From the NCBI GenBank assembly GCA_950295325.1, contig OX485808.1, positions 37,592,527-37,656,526 on the forward strand: 64,000 nucleotides of DNA, given 5' to 3'. Positions 1 through 28,955 of this stretch are shown one piece after another. The position numbers were made by a program, and so were the translations under genes. This DNA comes from Polytrichum commune (taxonomy: Eukaryota; Streptophyta; Polytrichopsida; Polytrichales; Polytrichaceae). The notes under the pieces are model-generated. The model was not told the DNA's origin. It saw only the letters and a program-made list of their open reading frames with translations, and made no database searches. Positions within the stretch are counted from its first letter, which is position 1, and each line of letters starts with the position of its first letter.

Positions 1-620
1 AAATCGGAATTGTTGTGCTTTGGTATGCCCCACCAAACGGTCCCCTCCCTTCAACATGTATGGCTTGATGAAGGCCTTGAAATCTGGTACTTCCTCAATC
101 AAGTGCGGAATTACTGGCATATGGTCCAAATCCATATACGATTTCATAAGAAGAGGTATGGTTGGAAAATCTTCTTCATGCAACTTCATGCTCCACCGTC
201 CGAATGATGCATCAATGTCGTCGTGTGTATGTCCCACCATCAAGAAAGACACAAACACCTCCTTGAAGATTTCTTTCGCCACGAGCAATGACCAAAAACA
301 AAATACTTATCGACATTTGTTGTCCTTCGTACAATTATCAAGTTGAACGTGGAGAGTTGGAGGCAATGGTTTTGCACAAATGGGCTCTCCGGGTGGTTTT
401 GGCAATGACGACATACAAACCTCCTTCCCCGCAAGCACTGCCTCATAAAGGGATGTGGTTCCACAACCATCAAAAAGTGCACGGGAAGAATATACCGGTG
501 GCTTCTCAAGATCGCGCAACAGTTTTGCAAATGAACCCACCGTGTGGTTAGCATCCCCAGGGTAAAAATCCAAACCATAATGGGCATACTTTACGTCCCC
601 ATGGCCGTGGGCAATCATAC
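1..620 (-). pseudogene. Element B transposase, exon 2 (DUF7869-type), partial and broken
   Basis: The minus-strand translation begins MIAHGHGDVKYAHYGLDF and contains the conserved LDNC motif, so it matches exon 2 of the intact transposase in element A (15532-17018). The acceptor AG is at 621-622 and the upstream intron covers 621-753. A TAA stop at 307-309 replaces the Tyr codon that follows DNKCR, where A and C have DNKSRY. Homology continues past the stop through a HTHDDID-type motif to the window edge. The gene is also split by element A, so it cannot encode a whole protein. DUF7869 is assigned from remembered family motifs, not from a search. Confidence 0.85.
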
Positions 621-753
621 CTGGAAAAAACAAACGATGCGTGACCAAAATAATCAAATAACCACTAAACGGATGTATGGAGTTGGACATTTGCCAAACA
701 CACCCAAGAAAATTGGATAGACTTTAAACACGTAGTTGTGATTTCATACAAAC

Positions 754-818
754 CTGTGACAGCTACGGGCAACTTGAAGAGACCATCCGTGGCCTTTATT
801 TTACGTGCATAACAAGGG
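754..818 (-). pseudogene. Element B transposase, last part of exon 1
   Basis: The minus strand encodes PCYARKIKATDGLFKLPVAV followed by a GT donor. This is the end of exon 1 and is collinear with the end of exon 1 in element A. The 5' part of the same exon is at 17549-18960, separated by the 16.7-kb insertion of element A. Confidence 0.85.
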
Positions 819-822
819 CATG
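819..822. repeat. Target-site duplication CATG, left copy
   Basis: CATG here and at 17549-17552 directly flank element A. Collapsing the two copies restores the transposase reading frame of element B exactly, which supports a 4-bp duplication. Confidence 0.85.
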
Positions 823-850
823 AACACTATATTCGTTAAAGTGAGACTTT
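823..850 (+). repeat. Element A left terminal inverted repeat
   Basis: The terminus starts AACACTATATTCG. It matches the reverse complement of 17521-17548 at 27 of 28 positions and the left end of element C (48585). Two GAGAC boxes about 15 bp apart follow, as they also do inside the right end of element B. Confidence 0.9.
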
Positions 851-985
851 TTGGGCATTTTGAGACATTCACATAAATAAGAACAAGGATAAATGGAACA
901 CATATTGGAGAAAGTTGTAAGATGCGAACACTTTGAAGCAGGTGTTTAGACCAAGAACCCCATAAATAACTCATATTTGTGATGG

Positions 986-1203
986 TTTAGGGTGGGCAAT
1001 CCAAATCTTAGACCACATTTAAGGGGAAACCTTAAAACATTCATATTATTGCACACAAAATATTAGAGCTTGTATGAATATGGTTTAGGTAGGGCAATCC
1101 AAACCATAGATCTTATTGAAGGGTTAATATGTTAACCAATATAATATTGCATACAAAATATTCCAAACTCATATTTGTGATGGTTTAGGTAGGGCAATCC
1201 AAA
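986..1203. repeat. Element A subterminal repeats with decayed palindromes
   Basis: There are three copies, at 986-1005, 1084-1103 and 1184-1203, of a 20-bp motif like TTTAGGTAGGGCAATCCAAA inside units of about 100 bp. Aligned to the element's palindrome it keeps both outer arms, with mostly transition-type changes near the centre. Element C has the same arrangement at 48748-48963. The region 850-1370 holds no gene. Confidence 0.65.
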
Positions 1204-1370
1204 CCTTAGACCATATGGAAGGGGAAATCATGTCTAACTTGTATTATTGCAAAAAAAAACATACAAAGTGTGGCATGTAAAATGCATATCATGCTAACAC
1301 CACACATGCATTGGATAGTGCGACCCAAAATGTTCTTGCCTATGGCCCAAAACCCTACGCCTACTATGGC

Positions 1371-1689
1371 CTATCTAGCCTCGGATACTACCTCTTTTTC
1401 TTTTGCTTCATTTTCTTTTGCTTTTTTTTTCTTTTGCCTCTTTTTCTTTTGCTGCAGCTTCTTTTGCTCGCATTGCTTCAACATTCCTGAAAATCTCCGC
1501 CCCGCGACTATAGCCATTCTTGGGGTGAACGCCATCAATAACACATTTTGTATTCCGTCGGCCGCCCGAATTATACGACGAAGAATTCGAATACGATGAA
1601 GTGGACTGTCTTGCATTTCTGGTCATGGAGTAGAAACGCTCCAACTCGATGGACGCACTAGACCGCATAGGTTTACGGGTGGGAGCAAC
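1371..1689 (-). CDS. Element A gene 1, exon 6: basic Ser/Tyr-rich tail
   Basis: This exon follows an acceptor (GTTGCAG at 1690-1696) and continues in phase 0 from exon 5. It encodes VAPTRKPMRSSASIELE, then a Ser/Tyr-rich stretch, then the block GYSRGAEIFRNVEAM that is conserved in elements B and C, then a Lys/Ala/Glu-rich tail. A run of T (A on the coding strand) near 1425 differs in length from element C. The frame therefore stops early at 1408 after KSKRK instead of continuing to VVSEAR at 1371. The highly charged tail suggests nucleic-acid or chromatin association, but I recognise no domain. It may serve as an alternative C-terminus of gene 1. Confidence 0.6.
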
Positions 1690-1827
1690 CTGCAACGCGT
1701 CAACGCAAGAACACATGTGTTAGTTTAGGGAGGAAGACCCAAACGTGTCACACGATCATTTTTTAAGTGCAAAATGATTGTAATGCGCGGATAACCATGT
1801 TTTTTGGGGGGGTTGGGGGGGGTTCAC

Positions 1828-2181
1828 CTTGTCACCGGGGGCGTTCCCGTTGGAGTTGGCGAGGAGGGGCAAGGCATCCCGCAAAGGAATAGGAAGGGTT
1901 CCACTCTTCGTAGGCCGAGCGTCCATCCGCAGCCGCCGTTGAGGTGTACTACTGCCGCCGGGCCGAGAGGGGGATGTCCGGACGCATTTGCGATTTATGC
2001 CTTTGAGCGGTGACGGGGACGCAGATCGCCGGAAGATTTGCTTGGGTGGGGGGCTATCGACGACGCCGGCGTCAAGAGGCTCCTTGGAGTAGTCGATGGT
2101 TGACGCGGCGTCGTAAACGGTCTCGTAGAAGAAGCTCCCCAAGTCTGACTCGCTGACGACGTCAATCGAGGGCTCCAAACG
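1828..2181 (-). CDS. Element A gene 1, exon 5: conserved unknown segment
   Basis: The exon is 354 bp (118 codons) between acceptor CCAG (2182-2185) and donor GTGAAC (1822-1827), in phase 0 at both ends. It encodes RLEPSIDVVSESDLGSFF, then YDAASTIDYS, then a Pro/Ser/Arg-rich stretch. Element C has a collinear copy (49667-50020) and element B a longer one (29835-30344) sharing the DAAS..DYS and VV(D/N)SPP blocks. No ATG starts the reading frame, so it is either an internal exon of gene 1 reached by skipping exon 4, or a separate gene whose first exon I did not find. Function unknown. Confidence 0.6.
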
Positions 2182-2324
2182 CTGGAGCCAAAATTGGAAC
2201 AAAACAAAACCCAAGGAAAAGGGGGGAGATAGAGCGCGTGAAAATCAAGATACATATGAAGCGTAAATTACACAAAATGGGCAGGCGCATATACACACAC
2301 GCACATACAAACACACGTACTGTC

Positions 2325-3137
2325 TCAAATGAGCTTGTTAAATTTCGCGTGAGATAACAACTCTCTGTACAAATGGTCTCGTGGATCCAAGTATCTCTCG
2401 CCTATGGGATTATTCCTAACAAAATTGTTTACGGGAAGTCCGCTTCCCCAGAGCGCCTGGAGGTATTTACTAAGGTCTAACAAAAATCGGTCCCGGACCT
2501 TCTCGACCGTCCAGGTAGGGCACACTATGAAGTTGGCCGTCGGGTTCAACATGTTCTTTGCGGCGCTGTCGTCCACCATGAGCGTGTTCTCGCGGGTGGG
2601 GCGGACGTCGTAGGGGACGCCTATCAAGGACGGTCGCTGGTCCCAAAAAATGGGCTTCAAGACCTTGAGGTATTGGGGGGAAGCGGGGTTGTTTGGTTTT
2701 TTGACGACTTTGCCGTCCTGTGTGTACAATATTCTACAGGCTTCCTGTGCTAGGACCATGCAGGGGGGCTCGATGCCCTTGAAGATGAACTCCACGACCG
2801 CATTGGTGTTCTCGGCCGTCATGGAGCTCCACACGACCACCCACCATCGTTGTTGGGCGATCTGGAGGAAGGTCCGAAGCCACGGGCGGAGGTGAACTAG
2901 TTTGCTCTTTATGAACGTGGGCGGCCCGTCGTAATTAGCGTCCTCGGGCTTGCAAAAGGGCACTGTGGGGGCCCTAGGGCAATGAACGCACTGCACGAGG
3001 ACACCGTTCAGGTCTAACACCAGGAATCGTTTCTTCGGCAGCGGGGGCGGGGCGGGTAAAACCAGGGGGGCCGCCGTGCTGCCCTCTGCGCTCCTTGGAG
3101 AAGAGCGTCGGGGAGCCGCTACGCTATGCTCCGAGCC
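2325..3137 (-). CDS. Element A gene 1, exon 4: FCP1/NLI-interacting-factor-like HAD domain
   Basis: The exon is 813 bp, from acceptor CCGCAG (3138-3143) to the stop TGA (2325-2327). After a Pro-rich linker it reads FLVLDLNGVLVQ (HAD motif I, Asp42 of the exon), then VVVWSSMTAEN (motif II), then TLMVDDSAAKNMLNP (motif IV). This is the layout of FCP1/SCP-like phosphatases, including plant NLI-interacting-factor-like proteins, which dephosphorylate proteins such as the RNA polymerase II tail. Motif I is DLN instead of the canonical DxD, so the second Asp (general acid/base) is Asn. Activity is uncertain and a pseudophosphatase is possible. The exon is intact and its length is identical in element C. 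Confidence 0.8.
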   Translation of the reverse strand, partial: GSEHSVAAPRRSSPRSAEGSTAAPLVLPAPPPLPKKRFLVLDLNGVLVQCVHCPRAPTVPFCKPEDANYDGPPTFIKSKLVHLRPWLRTFLQIAQQRWWVVVWSSMTAENTNAVVEFIFKGIEPPCMVLAQEACRILYTQDGKVVKKPNNPASPQYLKVLKPIFWDQRPSLIGVPYDVRPTRENTLMVDDSAAKNMLNPTANFIVCPTWTVEKVRDRFLLDLSKYLQALWGSGLPVNNFVRNNPIGERYLDPRDHLYRELLSHAKFNKLI

Positions 3138-3612
3138 CTGCGGATACGAGCGAGAGAAAATGGTGGGCGACTTATGTCATGCTATGTCCAAACGAAGCAT
3201 TAAGGAAACGAGTGTTCTTGGTGCAAACACAAAACCAATTGATTCATTTTGGAGGGGGGTGCAACAAGGGATACAAGAGAGACAAGAGCATACAAAATAC
3301 ATTCAAACACAATATACAAGTATATAGGAGTCAAAAATGGTGATTGTATTGTATACAATGCTCTATGTACATTTTGATTGGGGGGAGCCGCGTTGAACGA
3401 TGCGTTCAAACTAGCCTACTTCTAAATCTAGAAAAAATTTGAAGAGACGGGCCGCCGTGATGAAGACTTCGTCGCAAGCCGGGGTAGGTGGACGAACGAA
3501 TGGTCGGGGGGATGTGGCGAAGGGCGCGAGTGCCGGGGGGGGGGGCGACGTGTGTGTGAGTTTAGGGTAGCTAGGGGACACGACCAAGGCAAGAAGACAA
3601 AGACCCATGGAG

Positions 3613-3632
3613 TTTGGGTCGACCGACCCAAA
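3613..3632. repeat. Palindrome in intron 3 of element A gene 1
   Basis: One perfect TTTGGGTCGACCGACCCAAA about 22 bp inside the donor of intron 3 (intron 3138-3654). Element C has it at the homologous place (51473-51492). The rest of the intron is unremarkable. Confidence 0.9.
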
Positions 3633-3654
3633 CTGAGTGGGGTCAGTGCATTAC

Positions 3655-5125
3655 CTCGCCTTGGTCGTGCCTTGACGACGTTGATGCCGGCATCGCCTGC
3701 GCTGCCCCACCTCTGTCACCGCCGCCTCCGACGACGACGTCAGCCGCAACCTGCTCCTGCAAAGGCTGACTGTCAGGCCTTTGTCCCAACCCAACCTCCG
3801 CATGCGCATCATGCATTGGTTCATCGACTGGGTTAGGAGTAGAGGTATCACCAGGCCCTTGCGGGCCTTCAACGTCTAACATGCCCTCGTCCACCGGGGT
3901 CTGGTCGGGGACGGGGTTTGGGTCGGCCGACCCAAACCCTGCTGCTTGGCGAGCGTCGCTCTGGGACGCTGCAACGTCGGCACTGTTTGGGTCGGACGAC
4001 CCAAACATGTGGGGGTCGTCCCGCTGGTGGTGTGGGGGCGAGAGGATGGGAGGCCGGAGTGGCGGGGGCGCCAACGAGCTGGACGCACCGGGGACGCGCC
4101 AAAGGTTGGGGTCGTCCACCTGCTGGACGGGCGCGTAAGGATGGGCGTGCGGCTGCAGCAACTGTGCGAAGCTGAAGGAATGCTGCAGCGTGGGCCGCGG
4201 GGCGATATCCTGTGGCGGGAAGCCTGCGGGCAAGTGCGGGAATGAACTCGGGGGAGCCATCACCAATCCCTGCGCCAGCATGCCCTGGATCACTTGCGTG
4301 ATGAGCTCCGCTTGGGACGGAGTTTGGGCCATCGCCCTTTGCCGCTCCTGCTCCAACAGGAGAGCCCTCAACTCCGCCACTTCGTTGCGGACCGAGGGTT
4401 CCTCGGCGGCAGCCTTCTGCAGTCGCACACGCTGCTCCTCGTCTCGGAGCATTTTTGCGTTCGCCTCCTCCACGGTGAGGACCTCCGGTTTCACCCTCAC
4501 ATTCCCGGCGAACGCTCTGGGGGAGGCAGGATCCGACCTCAGCCTCTTGGCGAGTTCCATGTCGTCCTCGTCCTCTGAGCTTATTGCGATTGTCTCCTCC
4601 ACCGCATAGTCCCCGTACAGCTTCTTCCCCTTCATCCTTCTCCGCTCCCTGAAGGTGGCCGTCGCGTCCCTCGAGTACATGTCCTTCGCGTCGTCCACCG
4701 TCAACGCGGGCACCAGCCTGCTTTGCGGCGTGGCAGCCCGCATGGCCTTCTTCCGCTGAGGAGCCTCGGATTCTTGAGTGAATCCTGTTGCCCCTTCCTC
4801 CACCTCCCCCTCCACTTTCTCTGCTTCCTCCTCCTCCTCCTCCCCCCCCCTCCTCCCCAACCTCGCCACCTGCTCCCATCGACGGATTGCCCGGATGCAA
4901 CCCGATGAGCGGCTCTGGCAATTGAACGGGGGCACGCATGGCGAATTCACCCGGGTTGATTCGCCTCGCCATATCCAAAGGATTCTCGCCCCCCTCGACT
5001 ATCTCTTCAACGTAGGATCCGGGTATCCAGTCAAGGATGTCCATTTTCTTGGCCAGTGCCTTCTGGGTCCTGTAAAATTGAACATCGGCATCCTCCACAT
5101 AGGAGTAGATGTTCAACCCAGACAT
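3655..5125 (-). CDS. Element A gene 1, exon 3: acidic, coiled-coil, Pro-rich segment
   Basis: The exon runs from acceptor GTGCAG|ATG (5125) to donor GAG|GTAATG (3655). It opens MSGLNIYSYVEDADVQFY. A Glu-rich tract follows, then EETIAISSEDEDDMEL (a SUMO-interaction-like motif), VRVKPEVLTVEE (containing the sumoylation consensus VKPE), a Glu/Arg/Gln coiled coil and a long Pro/Ser-rich tail. Two palindromes are embedded in the coding frame (3917-3936 and 3986-4005) and read FGSADPN and FGSSDPN. The length is 1471 bp, one more than a multiple of three. The frame breaks at a C run around 4847-4855, whereas element C stays open across that tract. This could be a true mutation or a homopolymer sequencing error. 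It is probably a scaffold region of the protein. Confidence 0.75.
3917..4005. repeat. Two palindromes inside coding exon 3 of element A
   Basis: Perfect 20-bp palindromes lie at 3917-3936 (spacer GC) and 3986-4005 (spacer GA), in frame with the coding sequence. Element C keeps both (51777-51796 and 51846-51865). Element B has its own different palindrome at two places in the same part of exon 3. Confidence 0.9.
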
Positions 5126-5209
5126 CTGCACAATCCAAATCAATAGTATTAGTATAAACTAATGAAGAGTAAGGAAAAATGACATCCAAAATAAAATAAG
5201 AATAGTTAG

Positions 5210-5407
5210 TTTGGGTCGAGCGACCCAAACTATGGGCATACCCAGTTTGGGTCGCTCGACCCAAACTAGGGCGTGCACAGTTTGGGTCGCTCGACCCAAA
5301 CTAGGGCATGCACAGTTTGGGTCGAGCGACCCAAACTATGGGCATACCCAGTTTGGGTCGCTCGACCCAAACTAGGGGCAAACACAATTTGGATCGCTCG
5401 ACCCAAA
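5210..5407. repeat. Six palindromes in intron 2 of element A gene 1
   Basis: Copies of TTTGGGTCGNNCGACCCAAA start at 5210, 5246, 5281, 5316, 5352 and 5388, about 35 bp apart. The last has one mismatch. They fill most of the intron (5126-5442). The central dinucleotide is AG or CT. Confidence 0.92.
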
Positions 5408-5442
5408 CCGTCCGTATAGGGCTTTCAGGGTTCTTTGCTTAC

Positions 5443-6773
5443 CATTGCTGCAAAAATCGGTTTGGATCCCCCGAAAACGTTGAAGATGCAGTCTCCTCTC
5501 TTCGTGAGGGTCCTCATCATCCGCAGGTAGAACTCCATGCGCAGCTCATCCGCGGGGTAGTTGGCGTACTTCGCCTCGTCATACAAGCTCCTGCTGGTAC
5601 CCAACCCTTCTTGGACTTGGAAGAGCTTTTCCATCCTCGCTATAGGATGGTTGGGCACCTTAAGTAGATCAGCTTTGTACACGAAGTACAAGCACAACAC
5701 GTTGACGATCTTCGTCTTCTTGTCTTTCAACGTGCTGTACGCCCCCTCCGCCGGTGCAGTAACGTAGTGAGATTTCGAGACGGCATACTCCGGCTGCAAT
5801 TTGCGCACGATCTCGTAAACCTGCTCTGCCCTTCTGTCCTCGACAATCCAGAGCCAGACGTCGACCTCCCTGAATTTGGGGCTGGCGTAGTCCACGAACT
5901 TCGACAAGAAAGCATCGTAAAAAGGGGTGCTCATAGTCCCCTCGAATGAGGCTCCAGGGATATTCCTGAAGTCTATCATTCCGAAGGGGAAGCGGTCCCC
6001 GGCTTTAGTCCTGATCGCCTTCCTGGACTCAGAGCCCGGCCAACCTTGGATCCTGAGAGGCTCGACGGTGACCATGTTGAATTGCGCATCGCCTTCGAAA
6101 CTGACGATCTTCTTCTCCTTTATGAAGTTGGAGAAGGCCCGCACTGAGTGTTCGGGAAGCACCCGGTTCCTCCCCCCCTTCACGAGCTTGGATCTGAGGA
6201 AGTCGTCTCCCGCCTCCCTCATGAGTGCCGCCATGGACGCACTGGTGAACTTATATTCGGCTTTGAAGGCCCTCCAGTGCGCCTCGTCGACCTCTCCGTC
6301 CACGATGAGCTTCTTCTCGGGCACCAACTTGTGCAGCTCTTGGACGATGGTCGTCTTCTTCTTCCTGTTCTCCGTCCATTCCTTCATGGTGTAGCATGAA
6401 GGGACGAAGATCTTGGGTTTGGTGAAGACGATCTTGGGGTGGACCCAGCATCTCTTCGCCGTCGTCTCCACGTGTAGGATGTGGGACGCCGTTTTTCCCA
6501 TCTCTGTCTCGGAAAGACCTTGAAGCGCTCTGAAGAACTCCCTCACCAGAGGCTTCATTTGCTTGAAGCGCGTAGTCTGGTTGAAGAGCATGCCGGTGTC
6601 GGGGTCCATAAGGTTCCCCGTCTCGTGTTTTTCAAAAACACTCCTCCATTTTCCCCACACGGAGTCGGACGCGGTGATCAAATATATTTCTCCTCGCAAC
6701 TCGTTATACTTTTTTTGCTTGTGGCTAGCATTGTCTATCAAGGAGAATTTATTGATCATCTGATATTGAAGTC
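5443..6773 (-). CDS. Element A gene 1, exon 2: novel conserved block
   Basis: The exon lies between acceptor GTGCAG (6774-6779) and donor ATG|GTAAGC. It encodes about 444 residues that I do not recognise. Blocks conserved in elements B and C include MINKFSLIDN, LRGEIYLI, REFFRALQGLSE, the stretch around YTMKEW, FGMIDFRNIPGASF, VDVWLWIVEDRR and NVFGGSKPIFAAM. It is hydrophobic/charged like a globular domain, with no membrane segments. Compared with element C, one A is missing near the acceptor (TTCAATATCAG against TTCAAATACCAG), which puts the first codons out of frame. Either the gene uses the cryptic acceptor directly before ATG at 6759, or this is a homopolymer error. Confidence 0.75.
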
Positions 6774-6836
6774 CTGCACACGTAGCCAACAATTCATGTT
6801 AGACAACATCTCATGGAATAACAAATGAAACAGCAG

Positions 6837-6970
6837 TTTGGATCGATCGACCCAAACTATAAACCTGGTAAAGACAACAAAGCCATGCAAGAGTTTGGGT
6901 CGAGCGACCCAAACTATGAATTTGTTGAAGACACTAAAACAATGAAAGAGTTTGGGTCGGTCGACCCAAA
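6837..6970. repeat. Three palindromes in intron 1 of element A gene 1
   Basis: Copies lie at 6837-6856 (one mismatch), 6894-6913 and 6951-6970. The last begins within about 10 bp of the splice donor. The intron is 6774-6979. Confidence 0.92.
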
Positions 6971-6979
6971 CATACTCAC

Positions 6980-8305
6980 CTCCCATTTGGGGTTCTTATC
7001 TTTAGCATTCTCCCTTTCCCTGGGAGGCCTGCCATAAAACTCCCACACCTCCCTCGAGGCCATGATGTTTCTGATCCACGATGCCTGATAGGCCCTCTTT
7101 TTGTTCCCCATGTTGAAGAACCTGGAGATGTCGCTGAGGACCGTCTTGTTGTCCGACCAAACCACCAAAGCCTTCCAAACTTTTAGTTTCTCCTTCTGGT
7201 TGTTCGGGTCGTTCCACTCGGTCATCAGCTGGATTTTTTTTGATGCCTCCACACTGTGCTGCCCGTCAATCAACCAGAAGTCTCCTTTGGAGATTGTCGG
7301 CCACATATCAGGCGTCGGCATTCTCTTCAACCCTTGTGGCATGACAACAATCGTCTGCCTGTCGTCCTTGAACTGCCCGCCCAAGATTTGAGCGACCATC
7401 CAGTCGATGTAGGCGTCCTCCTTGGCTCGGACACATTTCTCGGGTGGCGCAAGGTGGCACTGCGCAATGTTGACCTCGAACTTGAAGTCCCTGCCCATGA
7501 AGAAGCATTGCAGGCATTTTGTTTCGAAGTTGGTGTTTATTTTTTGTATTTCGCCTGCATCCACCTCCTGGCCAGGCTTCGGCATCCGGAGCTCCGGGGA
7601 AACAGGCTCGTTAGTCATCACCGATGACTCTCTTCCCCTTTTGGAAGGGGTCGTTTGACGGCTTGTTGATGGCGTTGGCGTCTCGCTATCAGCCGGCGTT
7701 GTTGTAGTACTTGTCCGTCTCGACTCCACAGGGACCGCCCGCGGTTTCCTCACAGTTTGTGGTCTTGAGGACCCTGCGCCTTCTTCCGTCGGTGCCTTCC
7801 GCCTCACAGGCTGTTGTGTCTTGGGTTTGCTTTGCAGCGCCTTGTTTAGAACCGTGATGGCCTGTTTTAACTTCGTGAACCTGCTCGCAACCTTCGTGTT
7901 GGTTACACTACCATCTATGAATATGGCCTCCGGTTGTATGGTTTCAGGGTCGACGCAGGTCTCCTTGGCGTACAGGGGGTCGAAGGGCTCGGAGAACTGG
8001 TGCATGAACATGTGGACGTTCTGCACGGCGGAGTTCTCCAGTATGACGTCTACATAGTCCCCGAGAGACTGGACAGACGCAACCTCCCATCCCGTCAGCG
8101 TTGCCCAGGTGTGCTGCTCGTGGGTCCCCACCTTCACCACGAATAGCAGCTTGAACATGGATGCCTTCACCACCTGAACGGACCATGCCAGAACGACGCC
8201 ATCTTTTGGGACGTAAGAATCGTCCTGTGGAGTTTCATACTCCTGCCAAAGGTGGTCTGGCGCGAGCATGAACCACCTTTCACCTGGTCTCTTTTTAGGG
8301 GCCAT
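6980..8305 (-). CDS. Element A gene 1, exon 1: DGQHS (DGQHR/ParB-like) protein N-terminus
   Basis: The exon is 1326 bp (442 codons) from ATG at 8305 to donor GAG|GTGAGT. The start is chosen because the acceptor TTGCAG directly precedes ATG in all three elements. It opens MAPKKRPGERWFMLAPD. A Pro/Ser/Thr-rich linker follows (about residues 190-270), with a basic stretch. Near residue 343 comes FWLIDGQHSVEASKK, which resembles the IDGQHR-type signature of DGQHR-domain/DndB proteins and the ParB-fold nucleotide-binding loop. That family is mainly prokaryotic and associated with DNA binding or modification control, so the relationship is a motif-level inference. The exon is fully open here. In element C the Gln codon of this motif is a stop, and in element B the motif is deleted. 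Confidence 0.75.
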
Positions 8306-8333
8306 CTGCAACCTAAGAAATCGAAACTGTGAG

Positions 8334-9496
8334 TTTCGGTCGATCGACCCAAAGTATTGCAATGTGCATTTAACATTTGGAGGATTGACCCAAACATTAC
8401 TTAATTTTCAAAGTCGTTTTAAAAGATCTTTTAGATTTTAAATTGTGGTTTAGGTGGTCACCCTGCAATGTTTGAGTCGAGCGACCCAAACATGATGAGG
8501 CTGCAAATTTATGTAGTTTAACCCATTCATTTCAGACTGCAATGTTTGGGTCGAACGACCCAAACATTTACTTAATTTTCAAAGTTCTTTTATATTTTAC
8601 AATGTGTTTTAGTTCTTCTCCGTGTAATGTTTGGGTCGACCGACCGAAACATGTTAGGCTGTAAATTTAGGTATCTCAACCCAATCATTTCAGACTGCAT
8701 TGTTTGGATCGCACGACCTAAGCATTTACTTAATTTTGAATGTTCTTTTATATTTTGCAATGTGGTTTGTTCTTCTCCCTGTAATGTTTGGGTCGAGCGA
8801 CCCAAACATGATGAGGCTGCAAATTTAGGAAGCTCAACCCATTCATTTCAGACTGCAATGTTTGGGTCGAACGACCCAAACATTTACTTCATTTTCAAAG
8901 TTCTTTTATATTTTACTATGTGGTTTGTTCATCTCCCTGTAATGTTTGGGTCGAGCGACCCAAACATGATGAGGTTGCAAATTTAGGTAGCTCAACCCAT
9001 TCATTTCAGACTGCAATGTTTGGGTCGAACGACCCAAACATTTACTTCATTTTCAAAGTTCTTTTATATTTTACAATGTGGTTTGTTCTTCTCCCTGTAA
9101 TGTTTGGGTCGAGCGACCCAAACATGATGAGGCTGCAAGTTTAGGAAGCTCAACCCATTCATTTCAGACTGCAATGTTTGGGTCGAACGACCCAAACATT
9201 TACTTCATTTTCAAAGTTCTTTTATATTTTACAATGTGGTTTAGTTCTTCTCCCTGTAATGTTTGGGTCGAGCGACCCAAACATAATGAGGCTGCAATGT
9301 TTGGGTCGCTCGACCCAAACAAGAGGCTGCAATGTTTGGGTCGCTCGACCCAAACAAGACGCTGCAATGTTTGGGTCGCTCGACCCAAACAAGACGCTGC
9401 AATGTTTGGGTCGATCGACCCAAACATTTAGTTCATTTTAGGCTGCAATTCAAATATTTATTATATTTTAATATGAGTTTGGGTCGTCTCCCCAAA
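8334..9496. repeat. Palindrome array in the 5' leader intron of element A gene 1
   Basis: There are about 18 copies of TTTGGGTCGNNCGACCCAAA between the leader-exon donor (9618) and the ATG exon. From 8787 to 9262 the array is built of a 158-bp unit carrying two palindromes each, with spacers AG and AA alternating. From 9262 to 9405 it changes to a 35-bp unit. Sites at 8376 and 8703 are decayed. The first (8334, TTTCGG variant) and last (9478, TTTGGGTCGTCTCCCCAAA) are variants also found at the same ends of the element C array. Confidence 0.92.
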
Positions 9497-9618
9497 CTAC
9501 TGTGTTTCCAGATGCATGTTTAATGCTTCGGCAACATATACAATGCTTATGCATTGTATATGTAACAGGAACCTAAAGGGAATGATGCAAATTGTGTGCA
9601 CTGATGCAAATTGCTTAC

Positions 9619-10270
9619 CTTGTCTTTCAAACTCTTGAAAGCTGCTCTCACAATCTGCTTCTTACAACCAGACTCAGAAACTCTGTTGTGGCACTAAAGA
9701 ACAACTCTCACAAAGACCTCAGAAACACAATGAATCTCTCAAGCACCCTAAAACTTTCTCACAAACCCCCTGATTCTTGCAAACTCAGGCCTAATTTGAA
9801 AGACCTCTACCTTTCTATCACACTCGACCGTGCTCACTTCTACTCAACCTAAAATCACTCCATGCATGAAATTTACAAAACAAGTAAGGAGTTCAACACA
9901 ATAAACCGCTCCGAACTCACTCAAAGCTAACACTCTGGACCAAGAAGAGAGAATAACAAGAGGAATACAATAACAAGAGGAATAGAATGAGAGAAGAGGA
10001 GGAGAAGCATCAGAGAGGAGGACAGGAATGAAGGAGAAAGAAGAATGAAAGGAAGCGGCGCGACCAAGACAAAAGCAAAAGGTGCGAAAGGAAGCGCTTG
10101 GCGCGGCGCTATGGAAAGCGGCGGCGGCGTTTCCAAGAGCGGCGGCGGCGTTTCCAAGAGCGGCGCTTGGCGCGGAGGAAGAGAGGAAGAAAAAGAGAGA
10201 AAGAAAAAAGAGGAGGGGAGAGAAGGAGAGAGCGGAAGGGGTCACCCTAAACCCTCGAATCCGGGCCATT
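9619..10270 (-). promoter_or_regulatory. Element A gene 1 leader exon and proximal promoter
   Basis: A splice donor (GACAAG|GTAAGC, exon end 9619) lies upstream of the array and can join to the CAG|ATG acceptor at 8306. On the minus strand the leader is rich in GAGAG and GTTTGTGAG-type repeats and in pyrimidine tracts near 10150-10250, as expected of an untranslated exon. Elements B and C have comparable repetitive leaders. I did not find a convincing TATA box. Confidence 0.5.
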
Positions 10271-11017
10271 AGATTGCGCCGGGCCCATCAACGGCTCAGA
10301 AGCCTCGCGGGCCAACACCCTGCCAGGTGTCGACACCTCCTTGGTTAAGGTGGTTGCCCGCGAGGCTTGTGGTGTTGACACCTGCCACCCTAGGGAGATT
10401 GCCTTCCTGGTTGTCCTTGCCCCTAGGTGCGGGACATAGGAGGGCCGGCGCCTCTCTTGGCCGCCCGGCCCCGGCCTTCTAACCCGCTATTCATTAGCGG
10501 CAATTCAATACCAGTCAAAAACCTACGTGGACTAAGGTATTCCACAAAATTAACACCATCGCCAACTCATATTTTAATGGTGTTCAATTGAATGATCACC
10601 CGTTGGAATTGATAACATCGTAGAATGTAGCCATTATCGTTTTGGTGTATGAATAATGTAATTTATGGAATCATATGAGAGTGTTACAAAGTCTAAGAGG
10701 AGTAAGTCATAATTATATTGCAATCCACAAAGGCAATTACACGGTGCAATAATATAAATATGGTAACCATTCACATGGTTAACAGTTTAGGATTATGTAT
10801 TGTAATTTATATGATGGTTGTTGGTAGAGGACAATGCTCTAGTCTATAATGGATACCCTAACAAGTAGCATTAGAGTGAACATTAATATATGTACTTAGA
10901 AGTTCACATTTGAAGTACATGGGAGAAACAAATGATTACAAATGTATCTACTGCAACCCCATGGAGTTCACATATCATATGAAGTCATTTAAACATTCAA
11001 TTTGATGTTTGATGATG

Positions 11018-11052
11018 CCTAAACCCTAAACCCTAAACCCTAAACCCTAAAC
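11018..11052. repeat. Telomere-like (TAAACCC)n tract in element A spacer
   Basis: About five units of the plant telomere repeat. Elements B (22109-22170) and C (59551-59578, 60302-60320) have similar tracts in the corresponding spacer. Confidence 0.85.
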
Positions 11053-11889
11053 AACACAAACCATAACTGGATGGCACATAGGTCAAATGACATGGGCCTT
11101 GGTGCTTGTAGTTTCCAATACAAATGTATAATGTCATCACAACATCCTAATTCACAAACGTGAAAGATGGATGTGTGGTTTTTCACGAATGAACGCACTA
11201 AAGGAAATAAATGATATTGTGCTCACAAGTAGGTGATACAATATTAACCTATAACCTTGTCACCTGGTAAGAAGAGCATAAGAACTAGATTATAATAGAT
11301 AGGATGTTGTTCATGTTAACATGTTATTTGGAATAGTGAAATATTATATATTAATTTAAGGTAGATTTCATGTTGTGAATGATATGAGGACATACCTTTT
11401 GAACTTTGCATGTTTTGCTCACACACATTGCTAGAGTTCAAGGGACTTCACGATAGGTTCAAACATCATTGAAACATTGAATGTGCCAAATGTCATTTGT
11501 GGTTTATGGTTCCATTAATGACTTCCACATAGGTACTAGGTTATTGTCACACTTGGAGCCTTGAGGATGAAGCAATATTGGGTGCACACATTACAACACA
11601 ACAGATGTTCTTTTAACTAGCGGAAATTGAAAGTTGGCCAAATTATTCAAGTTTGTCATGGCAGTAATTATTTGTTTTCAAAATATAAGTCCTCATGTGA
11701 GAGTGTAAGTAATTGCATTAACTATTATATTTAGTGACTTTTAGTGACTTTTAGTATATGAAGTTTTGTAATACATGCACATCTTTTGTCAATATATTGT
11801 TTGAAATATACCATAATGTTTGACTACAAGTAGAGTAAAACCCCTTAATAGATATAATCTTACATATTGTCACAGGGTTATTGGTATTC

Positions 11890-11985
11890 AGTGTATGCGT
11901 TCATATGTAGTGTATCAAAATCTTTATATCCTTTTTAGTTATATGATAGTTAGTGTTTGATACACTTAAAACGAACGCATACACT
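11890..11985. repeat. Long inverted repeat (hairpin) in element A spacer
   Basis: The arms 11890-11919 and 11956-11985 pair over AGTGTATGCGTTC and AGTGTATCAAA, interrupted by a 6-nt mismatch, around a 36-nt loop. Weaker pairing extends outward. It could be a small foldback element or a cruciform-forming site. Confidence 0.6.
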
Positions 11986-12360
11986 TCCTATTACTAACCC
12001 TATGAGAGTAAGTAACATTAAATGTAAACTCAAACACTAAATATCCACTGTGGTGATATATGGAAGTTACATATAGGAATTTAGTATTAGTAAGGATGTG
12101 AGAAAAAAATACAACAATGATAAAAGGAGAAAGGAGATGGCAATAGGGAAGGTGGTGGTGTATTCATGTATAAAACTAATTATGAAAGAGTTGAAGAATA
12201 GTGTTGACCAAGTTAGGGTGGTAACAACTTTAAATAATATATGTTGAATTATTCATTTGATGGTTGGGGCAACGAAGAGCCAAGCTAAATATACATTGTC
12301 TATTATTGACAAGAAGCGGGAAATTGAGTCAGAAGGTTTGAATTAACGTCCAAAGGAGAC

Positions 12361-12440
12361 TAGGCGGGAAAGGCATCCAAAGAGGATGCCCAAAGCGGAG
12401 GCGGGTAGTATAAAGAGCCCAACCCCCCCAAATGCTGGTT
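12361..12440 (+). promoter_or_regulatory. Element A transposase promoter
   Basis: TATAAA at 12409-12414 is preceded by GGCGGGAAAGGCATCC and followed by a C-rich start region. Element C has the same block before its transposase (TATAAA at 60750-60755). Transcription probably starts near 12440 and a leader intron then carries the 78-bp array. Confidence 0.7.
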
Positions 12441-12630
12441 CTTTCTTTCATGTCCCAATCCTGAGATTGCTGCAAGCTCTCTAAGTTGGAGCTGTAATAC
12501 ACGGTTTGTGTACGTTTCCATTCATGAGCAGCTAATTACAACAAATATCTACGAGTTCAGTTGTTCCAAATAGGTTATATATAGATTAATAGAGAATCAC
12601 CCGAATAAATAGGCGGATTTTGCGGAATTG

Positions 12631-13746
12631 TTTGGGTCGGTCGACCCAAACCCAGCCTTACAGTGTGGGTGCTCTCTGTTGTGAGCCTGAACCCATCCTG
12701 CCTCAAGGTTTGGGTCGATCGACCCAAACCCAGCCCTACAGTGTGGGTGCTCATTGTTGTGAGCCTGAACCCATCCTGCCTCAAGGTTTGGGTCGATCGA
12801 CCCAAACCCAGCCCTACAGTGTGGGTGCTCACTGTTGTGAGCCTGAACCCATCCTGCCAAAAGGTTTGGGTCGGTCGACCCAAACCCAGCCCTACAGTGT
12901 GGGTGCTCACTGTTGTGAGCCTGAACCCATCCTGCCAAAAGGTTTGGGTCGGTCGACCCAAACCCAGCCCTACAGTGTGGGTGCTCACTGTTGTGAGCCT
13001 GAACCCATCCTGCCAAAAGGTTTGGGTCGGTCGACCCAAACCCAGCCCTACAGTGTGGGTGCTCACTGTTGTGAGCCTGAACCCATCCTGCCTCATGGTT
13101 TGGGTCGATCGACCCAAACCCAGCCCTACAGTGTGGGTGCTCACTGTTGTGAGCCTGAACCCATCCTGCCAAAAGGTTTGGGTCGGTCGACCCAAACCCA
13201 GCCCTACAGTGTGGGTGCTCACTGTTGTGAGCCTGAACCCATCCTGCCAAAAGGTTTGGGTGGGTCGACCCAAACCCAACCCTACAGTGTGGGTGCTCAC
13301 TGTTGTGAGCCTGAACCCGTCCTGCCAAAAGGTTTGGGTCGGTCGACCCAAACCCAGCCCCAAAGTGTGGATGCTGTGTGTAGTGAGCCTGAACTCATCC
13401 TGCCTCGAGGTTTGGGTCGCTCGACCCAAACCCAGCCCTCTAAGTGTGGGTGTTGTCTTTAGTGAGCCTGAACCCATCCTGCCAGAAGGTTTGGGTCGAT
13501 CGACCCAAACCCAGCCCTCTAAGTGTGGGTGCTCTCTGGAGTGACTCTAAACCCATCCTGCCAAAAAGTTTGGGTCGCTCGACCCAAACCCAGCCCCCTA
13601 AGTATGGGTGCTCATTATCGTGACCTTAAACCCATCCTGCCTCGAGGTTTGGGTCGCTCGACCCAAACCCAGCCCCCTAAGTATGGGTGCTCCTTGTCGT
13701 GACCTTAAACCCATCCTCCCAAAAGGTTTGGGTCGCTCGACCCAAA
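12631..13746. repeat. 78-bp tandem array with 15 palindromes, element A transposase leader
   Basis: There are fifteen copies of TTTGGGTCGNNCGACCCAAA at 78-80 bp intervals (12631, 12709, 12787 and so on to 13727). The intervening unit reads CAGTGTGGGTGCTC followed by GTGAGCCTGAACCC. The spacer dinucleotide is GT, AT or CT. The repeat at 13255 has one mismatch. The array probably sits in a leader intron, because an acceptor (TGTGTAG) lies at 13948-13954 just before the start codon. Confidence 0.93.
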
Positions 13747-13960
13747 CCCAGCCTCTAAGTGTGGATGGGATCTGGATGACAGTGTGGCCACTGGCCATCC
13801 AAAACCTTTACGAACCCAATGGCTTATTAGTCATATGAACTTGTATGAGCACTGAGTATTTGCAATTTTGTTTGTATATGATGGTTTTTGTGGTCTTCGA
13901 TTTGAACCTACAATTTTTGTGATTTTTTGACAATGTTCAATGTTCATGTGTGTAGGCAGA

Positions 13961-15404
13961 ATGGATGGGTTTAGTGAAATTGGGGATTGGTCATCTGATG
14001 ACATGGCCACTTGGCCATCTGCATCTGATGATGACTTAGACATTGTCGGGGAGGATACTATGGCTGACAGTGCGGATGAAGATCATTTGGATTTACCTTC
14101 GTCTTCCGTACCGCAGTGTCCCATTGTTGAATGTACGGGACTTTCAAGGGCTTCGTGGGTGAATTTGGAGGTGATACTTCTTAACGATAGTGGAGTTGTT
14201 GTGGCGGAGGGGATTTGCCGTAACACCCATCCGCAAGATTGCATTGATGAAAACCCGCTTGGCACCGAGGACGTTGGGGTTGTCATATTGGAGTCGGTCG
14301 TTCATTCCGAGGTGGATCCCACTCATAGGTTCTCCCTCCGCAGGTGGCCATTGAGGAATGTCACAATTGATGGAGTTAGCTTGCGTGAACATGAGCAACG
14401 ACACATGCAAATCGAAAAGGAGGTGCAAGCAAAAATGCGGCCGCGCAAGGGTCAAAGAAAGTACGATACATTGGCACGTCCTGCTCCGTCTGCAACTGAT
14501 TGTAAACGTCAAAGGTTGCTCGGGGAGGAGTCCATTAGAGAAGTTGCCACAAAGGATTGTTGTGTGCATCGTTGTTGCCAATTGTTTCCAAGGGATAAAT
14601 TGAAGGCCATCCGCGAAGAAATGTGGCTTGGAGATTTCCGTCTAAGATCCACAAGAAAACTTGATGTCCATAGGGCGATACATGTGAATGGGATGGGTCG
14701 CAAGGTCATCACCATTGAAAGCATAGACGTGTGTTGTAAGGCATGGTACACCATTCACGGTGTGTCGAAAGCGGACTTTTATCGACAAGCTGCTTATGCC
14801 AAGGAAGGCCGCCGGTCCCGTCACCATGGTAATGTGGGTTTAAAGAAGCCTAGGGAAGCAACAAAGCAAGCAACGACCACTCTAGCAACCATCATTGTCC
14901 CCCTTGCCGATGCAATGCCGCACAAAACACGCACGCTCACAACCGGTGAAAAGGTTGTGGAGAAAGTTCTTCCCACAGGCACAAAATGGAAAGACATATT
15001 GTTGGACGTGAATGCAGTTGGCGAGAAGATTGGGTTGGAGCCAATTTCATTGTCAAAATTGAGTGCAATTAAGAAACAAAACTTTAGTGAATACATTACA
15101 AAAAGACGAGGGGACAAATTTGCCAGGTGCTCTAATTGCGAGAAGTTGAAGCGCCTCCGGGATGCACACACGATGGGTACCGAGTCATATGCAGCGCATC
15201 AATTGAACTATTTCAAGCACGTAAACATGCAAGAGGCACACCGTAATGATTATTACACAAATAGAGCTTTGTCCATCTCCAGGCCCTTGGAGGTTCTTAC
15301 GGTCATCCATGACAAAATGGACCATGCCAAAACAGCCTCCCCATGTTTTGCAAATCGAATCAAGGCCACGGATGGGTTTTTTAAGTTGCCTGTATCGGTT
15401 ACAG
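13961..15404 (+). CDS. Element A transposase, exon 1 (DUF7869-type protein, N-terminal part)
   Basis: The start is ATG at 13961, directly after the acceptor TGTGTAG; element C starts at the same place. The exon encodes 481 residues. An acidic N-terminus is followed by a conserved region (SLRRWPLRNVTIDGV), Cys-rich motifs (DCCVHRCCQLFPRDK, then DVCCKAWYTIHGVSK) and a C-x2-C pair (FARCSNCEK) that may bind zinc. The last block, IHDKMDHAKTASP, probably carries the first catalytic Asp (about residues 451-454). It is joined to exon 2 by a 127-bp GT-AG intron within a Gly codon. The frame is intact. The best reading is the DDE-type transposase of the element. The family is identified from motifs remembered for plant DUF7869 proteins, not from a search. 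Confidence 0.8.
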
Positions 15405-15531
15405 GTGAACTTCGAAACAATGTCATGACATACCCTAAATGTTGTTGTATTTTATTCCGTGATATACTTGAGAACATGGATTCACTCAAAATGGTTTAAT
15501 TATATCTAATCACGTTGGGTTGGCATTACAG

Positions 15532-17018
15532 GAATGATTGCACATGGACACGGTGATGTCAAGTTTGCTCATTATGCTCTTGATTTGTATCCAGCGGATT
15601 CAAACCACACAATAGGGTCATTTGCAAGGCTTTTACGTGATTTAGAGAAACCGCCAGCCTATTCTTCAGGATTGTTATTTGAAAACACGGGTTCAACACC
15701 TCTATATGAAGCGTTGTTGGATGGAAAAGATGTATGCTTTCATTCGTTGCCAGAGCCACCCAGTGATCCCGTGATTGCCAAAAAGTTGCCTCCCACTTTG
15801 CGTGTCCAATTGGACAATTGTGCCAAGGACAATAAAAGTAGATATGTTTTTGCATATTGGTCGTTGTTGGTTGCGAAAGGCATTTTCAAGGAGGTTTTTG
15901 TGTCCTTCCTATTGGTAGGCCACACGCACGATGATATTGATGCATCTTTTGGGCGGTGGAGCATGAAGTTGCGGGAGGAGGATTTCCCTACAATCCCGTT
16001 ATTGATGAAGTCGTACATGGATTTGGATAACGTTCCGGTCATCCCCCATATGATTGAGGAGGTGCCAGACTTCAAGGCATTTATAGAACCTTATATTCGA
16101 AGTGGAGCTCACCGATTGATCGGGCATACGAAGGCACAACAATTCCGCTTCTATATGCGTGACGATGGTGTCCCGGCCATGCAATACAAGTTGTTGTGCA
16201 CGACACAAGACTGGAGCCCGCCGGAGGGTCTTCTTGTGTGGCGCGTGGATGCGGATGGAAAGACCATGTTACCGGATGGGGAGCCTAGGCCTTGCAAGCC
16301 AATAGCCATGAAGAATTTGGAGGATATTTTGAAAGGTATATCAGGCTTCATACAATATTGGGAGAGTTTGAAAATAGCGGATGTTGGCGGATCATGTTGG
16401 CATCGTTATGGGAGTTGGATACATTATTGGACACGTGTTCGTGCCGCCTTGGCAGACCTCCACCAAGATAGCCCTCATACTTTGAGGCATGGATTTTGGC
16501 CACAAACACGAGTCGATGTACAAGCTTCGGAGCCTAGTCTTTTGGGAAATGGAGAGGTTCGAGAGGAGTTTGATGTGGACGACCATTACGTGGGGCCAGC
16601 TAGTAGTCGTCCACCACCATCTTTCCGCATTGCAGTGGATTGTCATGAAGGTTATATGCTCATTTTACGTCCTGGAGACAAGACATATGCAAAGCCAGTG
16701 TGGGTGGCAAGAGCTTTGTCCAAACCCAATTTTGTAACTTCCAGCCCTCATTTTCGACAGATACAAGTGGAGTACTATCGACCGACAGCAAGGAATGAAG
16801 ATGTGATTCGGCATTATACAGGCTGGGATACAAACCCTAACTTTCGGTGGAAGGTGGATTCTGAGCACGGTCCATCTTGGGTAGATACAGATTCCATATT
16901 CATAGCATGGAAACCACGGAAAAACCATAGTGGATCAGTGTCCATCCCTCAAAAGTACATAACTTTTGCAAAAGACAACCTTGCTCGGATTGCAGAAGAA
17001 GCAACCCACGTTGAATGA
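15532..17018 (+). CDS. Element A transposase, exon 2 (DUF7869 catalytic part)
   Basis: This exon completes a protein of 976 aa. It opens MIAHGHGDVKFAHYALD, followed by LRVQLDNCAKDNKSRYV (Asp near residue 576) and VGHTHDDIDASFGRW (residues about 610-623). Together with the Asp pair at the end of exon 1, this gives an ordered set of acidic residues like an RNase H-fold D-D-D/E transposase. The Asp-Asn pair and the HTH(D/E)DID block are hallmarks of DUF7869 proteins as I know them. The C-terminal 350 residues are less conserved and hydrophilic. No stops or shifts occur. The ORF ends 530 bp before the right terminus. Confidence 0.8.
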
Positions 17019-17520
17019 GAAGTTGGTAGGATTGTGTTAGCATGATTATAGTTTAATACGTAATTATAGCAATATAAATTACACATATGTGTGCTCTTCA
17101 AAATTGGGGCAGAGTTTGGGTAGAACTTACGAATACTATATTGTTTGGAGTTGGATGAATATCCATTTACTATATTTAAAAAAAAAATGAAGTTCATCTT
17201 ATTATTATGTTTGGGACTATATTGTCGAATGAAGAAATATGCATTTATTGCATGCACTTTGTATGTTGCAATGTCTATATTCTATTGTGTATGCTAATAA
17301 TAGAAATCATTTTATATGTTTTTTGGGTGAAACTTGTTTGGAGTGCTCTACCCAATGTGTTTTTGTTGATGAAGTTGGTGTCGAGTGCTCTACCATATGT
17401 GCTTATGTCCGCACATCATAGATTTGGGATATTAGAACATATAATATAATTGAGATTGTTGACAATATAGTTTCGGGCCTCTTCAAGTTCTTTGATCCAT
17501 ATATTAATTTGAGACTAGAG

Positions 17521-17548
17521 AAAGTCTCAATTTAACGAATATAGTGTT
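17521..17548 (-). repeat. Element A right terminal inverted repeat
   Basis: The sequence ends CGAATATAGTGTT and is the reverse complement of the left end with one mismatch over 28 bp. A nested GAGAC/GTCTC pair lies just inside it. The stretch 17019-17520 holds no gene. Confidence 0.9.
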
Positions 17549-17552
17549 CATG
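17549..17552. repeat. Target-site duplication CATG, right copy
   Basis: Direct repeat of 819-822; see the left copy. Confidence 0.85.
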
Positions 17553-18960
17553 CGGTTTTGGCGTGGTCCATTTTATCATGGATAACTGTTAGAACCTCTG
17601 TGGGCCTCATTATGGATAGAGCACGATTCTTATAGTAATCTTGACGGTGTGCCTCTTGATTGTTGACATGTTCAATATATTTTTTCTGGTGTCTGGAATG
17701 AGATTCAGTGCCTATGGGGTGGGCGTCTCGAAGACCTTTGTATTTTTCACACGTCGTACATCTAGCGAACTTGTCCCCGGGTCTTTTCAGAATGTATTCC
17801 GCAAACTACTGGTTTTTAATCACACTCAACTTGGACAAAGAAATGGGCCCACATCCCGCTATGCGACCCACTTCATTGATGTCCGTTAAGATGTTCTTCC
17901 ATTTTGTGCCCGTGGGCAACACCATTTGAACAACCTTCTCCCCTGACGACAATGTCCTCGTCTTGTGGGGCATTGCATCGGCCAATGGCACTATGATGGT
18001 GGATAGTGTCGCGGACGCTTGCAGTATAGCCTCCCTAGGTTTCTTTGTGCCCGAGTTGCCATGAAATCGAGAGCGGCGACCCAACGATGAATACTTTCGA
18101 AACCTATAAAAGTCAGCCTTGGAGACGGCATGGATGGTATACCACGCTGTACAACACACATCAACATTCTCAAGTATCACCACCTTATGCCCATGGGTAT
18201 CAAGGTGCAAATTTCTGTGGACCTCGAGTTTCTTAGCCGACCTCATACGAAAATCCGCAAGCCACATCTCTTGACGCAGAGATCTAATTTTCTCCCGCGG
18301 GAAAAATTGGCAGCATTTCCTCGCGCAACAATCCTTGCCGGACACTAGACGGATAGATTCGTCCCCCAAAAGCCGATCCCGTCGACGCTCCTTATCTCCG
18401 CGAGGCACACGGTTTGAATCATATCTACGGAGGCCTTTGCGAGGACGTGTTGTGGCCAACAAAGCTAATTGTGTTTGCTTATGTCGCCGCTCATGATCCC
18501 ACAAACTCACTTCCTCATGTAGAACTTGACGAAGCGGCCATCGACGCAAGGAAAATCTCCATGTCACCGGGACCTCTACCGGAAGCAAAGAGTTCAAGAT
18601 GCACACGCCAACATCATCGAGACCTAGGGCGTTGGCATCGACACAATCACGGGGATTGGAGTTTCTACATATGCCATCTGCCACCGGGACACCAACCTCG
18701 TTGAATAGAACGACATCAAGGCCAACCCATTGCTCCCTCCCGAAACCGGCACACAACGGAATGTCATCGTGGTCATCTCCGGAATGCAGAGATTGTTCGT
18801 GGACTTCCAAAGATTCATGGGAGGATGTATCCACAAACACCCCCCTCACGTTTGGCACACCATTACTATCTGCCGACGGGGAAGACAGTTCACATTCAGC
18901 ATCGGATGACGATGCATACGTCGACAACTCCAATGAACTATCACCCACATGCAACGCCAT
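17549..18960 (-). pseudogene. Element B transposase, exon 1 (5' part)
   Basis: The start ATG is at 18960, a few bases after a GTCTAG acceptor, as in A and C. The reading contains REQWVGLDVVLFNEVGVPVA, FSLRRWPLRQV, DCCARKCCQFFPREK and DVCCTAWYTIHAVSKADFYR, all homologous to A. A TAG stop at 17806-17808 interrupts it after SVIKNQ. Homology then continues in the same frame through a C-x2-C pair (FARCTTCEK) and IHDKMDHAKTA up to the insertion of element A. An upstream in-frame ATG at 19014 is possible but not conserved. Confidence 0.82.
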
Positions 18961-19179: not shown

Positions 19180-19660
19180 AGGAGAACACTCGTTAGTCGT
19201 CCAGGAGGGCCCTGCTGTTCGGACCAGCGCCTGTCCCCATACAACCGACGACGAAATCAGAAATCTGAGAACGCCACATGCATTTACGAACGCGCGTTCG
19301 TGACCTCAGTAACTTCTCCATGTACATCCGGCGGCCTTCGAGATCCCTCAAATGAGAGCACCCTGAGGAATATCGGTTTTGTAGGTCAAAGTACCATGTT
19401 GACTTAGGAACCTGCGCGATATACTATCACAAGAGAACACTTGTCCATACGCACAAAATTAGCAAATCTGCAGATGATGCCTGAATCAACTCCAACAATA
19501 TTTTGAACACTGAGCACCTCCATATTGTGAATTTGATTATGTTGACTTTTGCGTACCTACCCATTTACGAACGGACGTTCGTAAATGGGTGCGACCCCGT
19601 GTTCACATCCTTCACGGACGAGCGATGAGCATATTTTTCTTGCTATTCTGTGTTCGTAAA
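19180..19660 (+). repeat. Diverged internal copy of gene 1 exon 3 end and intron 3 (element B)
   Basis: This stretch aligns with 28262-28850. Shared landmarks are AGGAGGGNCCTGCTG, a palindrome at 19283-19304 (like 28365), GTTTTGTAGG, CTATCAC and GATTATGTTGA. It lies just upstream of B's transposase start, so part of gene 1 was duplicated into the transposase leader. Confidence 0.65.
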
Positions 19661-26762: not shown

Positions 26763-26781
26763 GTAAGCTCTCCAACTAATA

Positions 26782-26877
26782 TTTACGAACGCTCGTTCGT
26801 AAAGTTCACCTCAACTTGTCTTGGGGTTTGATGACATTGTTTCTCGTCGTTGATGTTTACGAACGCACGTTCGTATA
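26782..26877. repeat. Two palindromes in intron 2 of element B gene 1
   Basis: B-type palindromes at 26782-26803 and 26856-26877 (last bases decayed) within the intron 26763-26903. The equivalent introns in A and C contain six and three A-type palindromes. Confidence 0.9.
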
Positions 26878-26903
26878 TTCTAACGTATTTGCTTGAATCT
26901 CAG

Positions 26904-28337: not shown

Positions 28338-28364
28338 GTAACTCTCCTCTGAGAATACCATTTT

Positions 28365-28823: not shown

Positions 28824-28955
28824 TGTGCCCTTGAGCACATTTTCCTTGCACTCTCCTCACTTCCTCGTCTTTCCCCATAATGCACCGTCTTCATTTTCTA
28901 CGCAAAGTTTCATTATTGGATCATAGAATTAAACTAGTCGAGTTGTTCATCACAG

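Follow-up and report, generated by a model that had tools for sequence, protein, structure and literature searches.

Why does a giant DNA transposon carry dozens of copies of one palindrome in its introns and leaders? The question is raised by element A (823-17548), which lies in a stretch of 64,000 nucleotides from the moss Polytrichum commune (assembly GCA_950295325.1, contig OX485808.1, positions 37,592,527 to 37,656,526; hereafter the window) together with its sister, element B, and with element C, into which A has inserted. All three are giant two-gene DNA transposons with divergent genes, gene 1 being on the minus strand and gene 2 on the plus strand in A. The palindromes of A and C were found to be wholly different and to follow the lineage of gene 1, and the gene 1 protein is predicted to contain a ParB N-terminal fold and a DNA-methyltransferase fold lacking its catalytic motifs. 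By analogy, we propose that this protein may bind the palindromes as a dimer and shield the element from silencing, resembling the VANC proteins of Arabidopsis in logic and perhaps ParB and VirB in mechanism, a reading which we regard as plausible, if short of probable.

The first-pass annotation of the window had described about 45 near-identical palindromes of 20 bp in element A. We found 43 sites in A and 33 in B when up to three mismatches were allowed, the threshold used for this palindrome (P1) throughout the window, and the unit is better written as the 22-bp GTTTGGGTCG-NN-CGACCCAAAC, with two 10-bp arms and two free bases between them. Sixteen of the sites in A occur in the predicted 5'-leader intron of gene 1 (8333..9425; 158-bp and 35-bp units), three in intron 2 (6836..6971; 57-bp unit), six in intron 3 (5209..5408; 35/36-bp unit), one in intron 4 (3612..3633) and fifteen in the gene-2 leader (12630..13747; 78/79-bp unit). 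The final two are exact sites, 69 bp apart, in coding exon 4 of gene 1 (3916..4006), where they encode FGSADPN and FGSSDPN; they are the only two of the 43 sites within the 8587 predicted coding bases. The palindrome had been placed in both 5' leaders and twice in a coding exon, which agrees with our counts, and also in every intron of gene 1, which holds for four of the six predicted introns, whereas the palindrome is missing from intron 5 and occurs in intron 6 only with four mismatches (at 1723). The arrays of element B have units of about 64, 57, 35/36 and 32 bp, and among arrays with different units the palindrome is the sole shared part. In a set of 13 sites, where each array or region of A and B is represented once and a lone 2-mismatch site of B is included, the arms carry 1.6-2.0 bits per position and the flanks 0-0.9 bits.

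Element C parallels A but has a palindrome of its own, P2 (TTTACGAACG-NN-CGTTCGTAAA), of which 29 sites were found at up to four mismatches in the same kinds of place as P1 in A. No P1 site occurs between 17549 and 48584, as had been reported for the host DNA around element A, but the DNA beside A belongs to element C, with P2. At up to three mismatches, the 30 A-lineage and 30 C-lineage loci compared around gene 1 exon 3 separate completely: every A-lineage locus has P1 but lacks P2, and every C-lineage locus has P2 but lacks P1. These 60 loci, among them the A and C of the window, are the top-scoring copies (97-100% identity, in full lists that reach down to 88% and 83%) and represent close kin within each lineage rather than 60 independent tests. 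Out of 152 database proteins, 54 contain a palindrome in their translation, 32 of them P1 and 22 P2, and none contains both; of the palindrome-reading proteins placed on a quick tree, all 12 with P1 belonged to the A clade and all 14 with P2 to the C clade. A supposed third lineage, reached through protein P0062, was rejected as its copies at 45-48% identity included at least five A-lineage copies already listed.

Genome-wide, a total of 9231 exact P1 sites and 2909 exact P2 sites were found, against none for the reversed-pattern control of P1 and none for the control of P2. The first 100 listed of the 9231 P1 sites fall into six clusters taking up 51 kb out of 1.72 Mb, the last of which is possibly longer. 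Three clusters of about 10 kb each hold 77 of these 100 sites; a scored gene 1 exon lies in one of them, and the other two were assigned by site spacing alone. Among the P2 matches listed, 86 distinct sites form seven clusters, one of which holds a C-lineage gene 1 exon 3 while another begins 113 bp from such an exon.

Judged from its pattern of substitutions, P1 looks like a protein site and not a hairpin. None of 74 changed P1 arm pairs showed a compensating change in the partner base (156 distinct contexts, window and loci L001-L038), and only one of 46 changed P2 arm pairs did (44 contexts). Because the arm changes are uncompensated, selection for base pairing is disfavored and direct reading by a protein is favored, and a hairpin or RNA structure was ruled out on this ground. 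Immediately beyond the P1 arms lies a base pair that varies but is complementary in 114 of the 156 contexts where 58 were expected; the corresponding pair outside P2 is complementary in 27 of 44 contexts against 25 expected, with no such excess.

Gene 1 is under purifying selection, and the protein predicted from it in element A consists of several domains. Exon 2 (6980..8305, minus strand; delimited by its frame and splice sites and studied with a structure model, fold matches and a 53-row alignment) is predicted to have an ordered region at residues ~11-160 with a weak PH/PTB-like match, followed at residues ~273-404 by a ParB N-terminal fold containing DGQHSVEA. The GERR of the ParB CTPase Box II, GERRxRA, was found in none of the 53 rows, where GQH is present instead in 47 and four are gapped. 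Exon 3 (5443..6774, minus strand) has, from its structure model, a predicted helical half (residues 1-225) and, with fold matches as well, a predicted N6/N4 DNA-methyltransferase fold of the MTA1/CcrM type (residues 226-444). Neither the catalytic motif [DNSA]PP[YFW] nor the S-adenosylmethionine motif [FC].G[ST]G of such enzymes was found in any of the 65 exon 3 rows; the catalytic place has an invariant Asp, followed by Phe-Arg in at least 90% of rows. Exon 4 (3655..5125, minus strand), which holds the two coding palindromes, is interrupted in frame near 4840 in A, while B is open at that place and broken further on. Exon 5 (2334..3137, minus strand) encodes a NIF/FCP1-like phosphatase domain (PF03031, E 3.6e-15). 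DxDxT/V is the catalytic motif of FCP1/SCP phosphatases, and its place is taken by DLNGV in A and B and by YLNGV in C. By these motif losses, both the methyltransferase and the FCP1-like domains seem to be catalytically dead. Exon 6 (1828..2181) and exon 7 (1411..1689, end uncertain), both on the minus strand, are predicted from open frames and splice sites.

Pfam had no match for gene 1 exons 2, 3 and 4, Pfam scans of the rows in the exon 2 and exon 3 alignments returned no ParB or methyltransferase family, and profile searches of PDB sequences returned nothing relevant. No gene 1 relative was confirmed in viruses (IMG/VR, exon 2) or in prokaryotes (GTDB genomes, exon 3), by a scan which reaches distant relatives poorly in both cases, and no exact P1 was found in IMG/VR. 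One 26-27% relative of gene 1 exon 2 is protein P0150, which its label assigns to an uncultured Synechococcales cyanobacterium and which perhaps represents plant contamination of a cyanobacterial bin.

The second gene of element A consists of exon a (13961..15496, plus strand), an open frame without a Pfam match that would form the N-terminal part of the protein, and exon b (15534..17018, plus strand), which contains DUF7869 (PF25273, E 1.4e-40). From the terminal inverted repeats (TIRs) and the layout of the element, we infer that gene 2 encodes a putative transposase.

The elements also bear a mutational footprint resembling that of methylation. In A-lineage exon 3 (30 copies), CpG and CHG positions each had 0.18 transitions per site, the remaining C/G positions 0.09 and A/T positions 0.03; the values for C-lineage exon 3 were 0.14, 0.18, 0.04 and 0.01 in this order. 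The observed/expected CpG ratio is 0.79 in A, 0.84 in B and 0.97 in C compared with 0.44 in 30901-48500, and inside A the values are 0.89 (gene 1 part), 0.58 (middle) and 0.63 (gene 2 part). This pattern fits plant-type methylation of elements once silenced, although part of the footprint could be due to the youth of the elements, their base composition or constraint on coding sequence. The CHG signal, together with TTTAGGG-type repeats in A and the seven contigs among the genomic hits, points to a green plant, perhaps a moss, as host.

The proposed mechanism would run as follows. With gene 2 as the transposase, the gene 1 protein would serve as a DNA-bound scaffold, in which ParB-fold and helical domains are joined to an N6/N4-methyltransferase fold and an FCP1-like phosphatase, both dead, and the 22-bp palindrome would be its binding site, parS-like and read by a dimer. 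The intron and leader arrays would let the protein load along the whole element, where, bound and perhaps spreading, it would keep host CG/CHG silencing off the element genes, in the manner of VANC on VANDAL transposons and of VirB against H-NS. A more specific form of the proposal, in which a ParB-type clamp fused to dead folds loads at parS-like palindromes and spreads against silencing, with lineage passwords of which one was adopted by an unrelated transposon, is in our view rather doubtful.

Two known systems provide the model for this proposal. The VANC/VANDAL system of Arabidopsis, in the passages of PMC5735166 and PMC10398659 that describe it, has motif arrays in non-coding DNA, a motif that differs by element, fast turnover of everything except the motif, and a separate conserved gene; the VANC6 motif is also carried by another transposon, AT9TSD1. 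The likeness to VANC that the first-pass annotation had suggested stands as regards tandem non-coding arrays of a short motif that differs by lineage, turnover that spares the motif and a separate conserved gene, and even an unrelated transposon carrying the motif has its counterpart here (type D, below), but self-specificity is only partial. The VANC21 motif is the 9-base YAGTATTAY as opposed to a 22-bp palindrome in A and C, and gene 1, with a putative anti-silencing function, differs from VANC in its predicted ParB and methyltransferase folds. VirB, a ParB relative, counters H-NS silencing by site binding and spreading, and GERRxRA is a ParB motif, according to the corresponding passages of PMC10653881. 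The ParB-fold domain and the palindromic sites are shared with ParB-parS and VirB, whereas the GERRxRA arginines are missing in gene 1 and dozens of sites lie inside a eukaryotic transposon.

Two observations qualify the link of P1 to the gene 1 protein. As the two genes move as a unit, a motif that matches gene 1 matches gene 2 too, and P1 is common to two transposon types, which refutes its strict self-specificity. The palindrome had been described as specific to the element; this is right in part, P1 and P2 being lineage-matched, but 23 of the first 100 listed P1 sites belong to three clusters of another type of transposon, here called type D (loci L001, L002, L005, L007, L069 and L070), so that P1 is not confined to the family of A. 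The type D clusters show no similarity to the A and C proteins tested, save one 46-residue match on the palindrome array itself. On one side, type D has a minus-strand gene, transposase-like by eye, whose exons adjoin a P1 array, and on the other a TATA-like box and a leader carrying a P1 array; locus L070 unites both halves (96.5% to L001 and 87% to the L002 side). The type D promoter is similar to the gene-2 promoter of A, with z scores of 7.7 for A and 5.6 for B. Pfam gave no name to the type D proteins, apart from weak matches and an N6_N4_Mtase-like stretch at one locus (PF01555, E 3.1e-5, below the curated cut-off), which also has 1.5-kb direct repeats. A dense P2 cluster at C1:640864-646099 has a spacing of 33/34 bp, unlike that of C-type elements, and could be a type D element with P2.

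Such sharing is what would be expected if the palindromes bound a host transcription or chromatin factor, used by several transposons as an enhancer or insulator, with gene 1 doing something else: P1 arrays are found in two transposon types without protein similarity, including a type D leader after a TATA-like promoter. We nevertheless consider a host factor unlikely, since 77 of the first 100 listed sites lie outside type D, in three clusters of about 10 kb of which one has a gene 1 copy, the motif is wholly different between gene 1 lineages of the same genome, and one type D locus also has the methyltransferase-like stretch.

A different role is suggested by the alga Ectocarpus, where the 21.5-kb transposon Sola1-1_Ec32 is described in PMC12477816 as having a gene on the opposite strand that encodes both a ParB-like and an N4/N6 methyltransferase domain. 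The sections concerned cite similar proteins from green and red algal transposons and raise the possibility of a class of proteins that bind and modify the transposon encoding them. Gene 1 belongs with these genes, sharing with them the giant DNA transposon, the opposite-strand position and the ParB-like and N4/N6 methyltransferase domains, and the system is not new to this extent, contrary to what had been thought; the lineage-matched palindrome arrays and the lost catalytic motifs are the additions made here. As far as the algal cases are known by description, gene 1 differs in having the fold without the catalytic motifs, a phosphatase-like domain and palindrome arrays specific to each lineage. 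The main text of PMC12477816 contains no word starting with 'palindrom', and literature listings of a few entries per query had no report of palindrome arrays alongside a ParB-methyltransferase-type gene. It is improbable that the gene 1 protein marks its own DNA at the palindromes with N4-methylcytosine or N6-methyladenine, although the Ectocarpus authors suggest that the algal proteins bind the DNA of their own transposon and modify it epigenetically. The predicted exon 3 fold is that of DNA N6/N4 methyltransferases and the type D stretch points in the same direction, but the absence of both motifs from all 65 exon 3 rows makes active self-methylation unlikely, and an invariant Asp followed by Phe-Arg at the catalytic place also speaks against it.

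Repeated internal or subterminal transposase sites are common in transposons, and two 4-mismatch P1-like repeats near the left end of element A (1083 and 1183) would agree with palindromes that are bound by the transposase during mobilization. This is quite improbable, as the palindromes are in introns and leaders rather than at the ends, and types A and D have P1 in common but not their proteins. A neutral satellite or hairpin-forming repeat without a binding protein is hardly credible, for while the arrays expand and contract quickly (the count in intron 3 ranges from 1 to 8 sites among the loci compared), the spacers vary between arrays and the arms stay constant, even within a coding exon, and the arm changes are uncompensated.

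If binding and shielding by the gene 1 protein are true, the element would provide a second sequence-specific anti-silencing system of transposons, based on a ParB fold, and would imply independent origins of such systems, with apparently at least two separate pairs of motif and protein in one genome. The role of ParB-methyltransferase transposon genes could then be addressed by a direct binding test, and the pairs might be a source of new sequence-specific DNA-targeting parts.

The structure of element A supports its earlier description as a giant two-gene transposon. It is complete and spans 16.7 kb between TIRs that begin AACACTATATTCGTT, the left one (AACACTATATTCGTTAAAGTGAGACTTT) at 823..850 on the plus strand and the right one at 17521..17548 on the minus strand, and it is flanked by a CATG target duplication (819-822 and 17549-17552). 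When 823-17548 is excised in silico with one CATG, the interrupted gene is locally back in frame and reads DHAKT followed directly by ACPCYARKIKATDG, which resembles DHAKTASPCFANRIKATDG of the element's own gene 2; the gene disrupted is gene 2 of element C. Target duplications of 4 bp are a trait of the Sola superfamily, and by this trait element A fits Sola and can be set beside Sola1-1_Ec32.

Element C occupies 1-822 and 17549-30814 and has the layout of A. Its gene 2 is on the minus strand, the first part at 17549..18960 and the severed second part, 72% identical to gene 2 of A, at 1..822, with 12 P2 sites in the leader (19283..20536). Eight more lie in the leader of its gene 1 (23852..24434), and nine further P2-like sites lie in gene 1 itself (24463..30814, plus strand), which contains exon 2 (24463-25413, shortened in the window copy), exon 3 (25455-26762) and a stretch that is like exon 5 of A by eye (about 28938-29720). 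The open frame of exon 4 was observed to contain two palindromes in both lineages, the C pair being at 27881-28278 with 1 and 2 mismatches. Element B (48585..64000), in which the two genes are ordered as in A, runs off the window.

Two minor features were seen within element A. Three imperfect repeats at its left end (968-1258), spaced by 98-100 bp and with a weak palindrome-like core, GTTTAGG..ATCCAAA, are possibly transposase sites, and TTTAGGG-type repeats occur near 11030.

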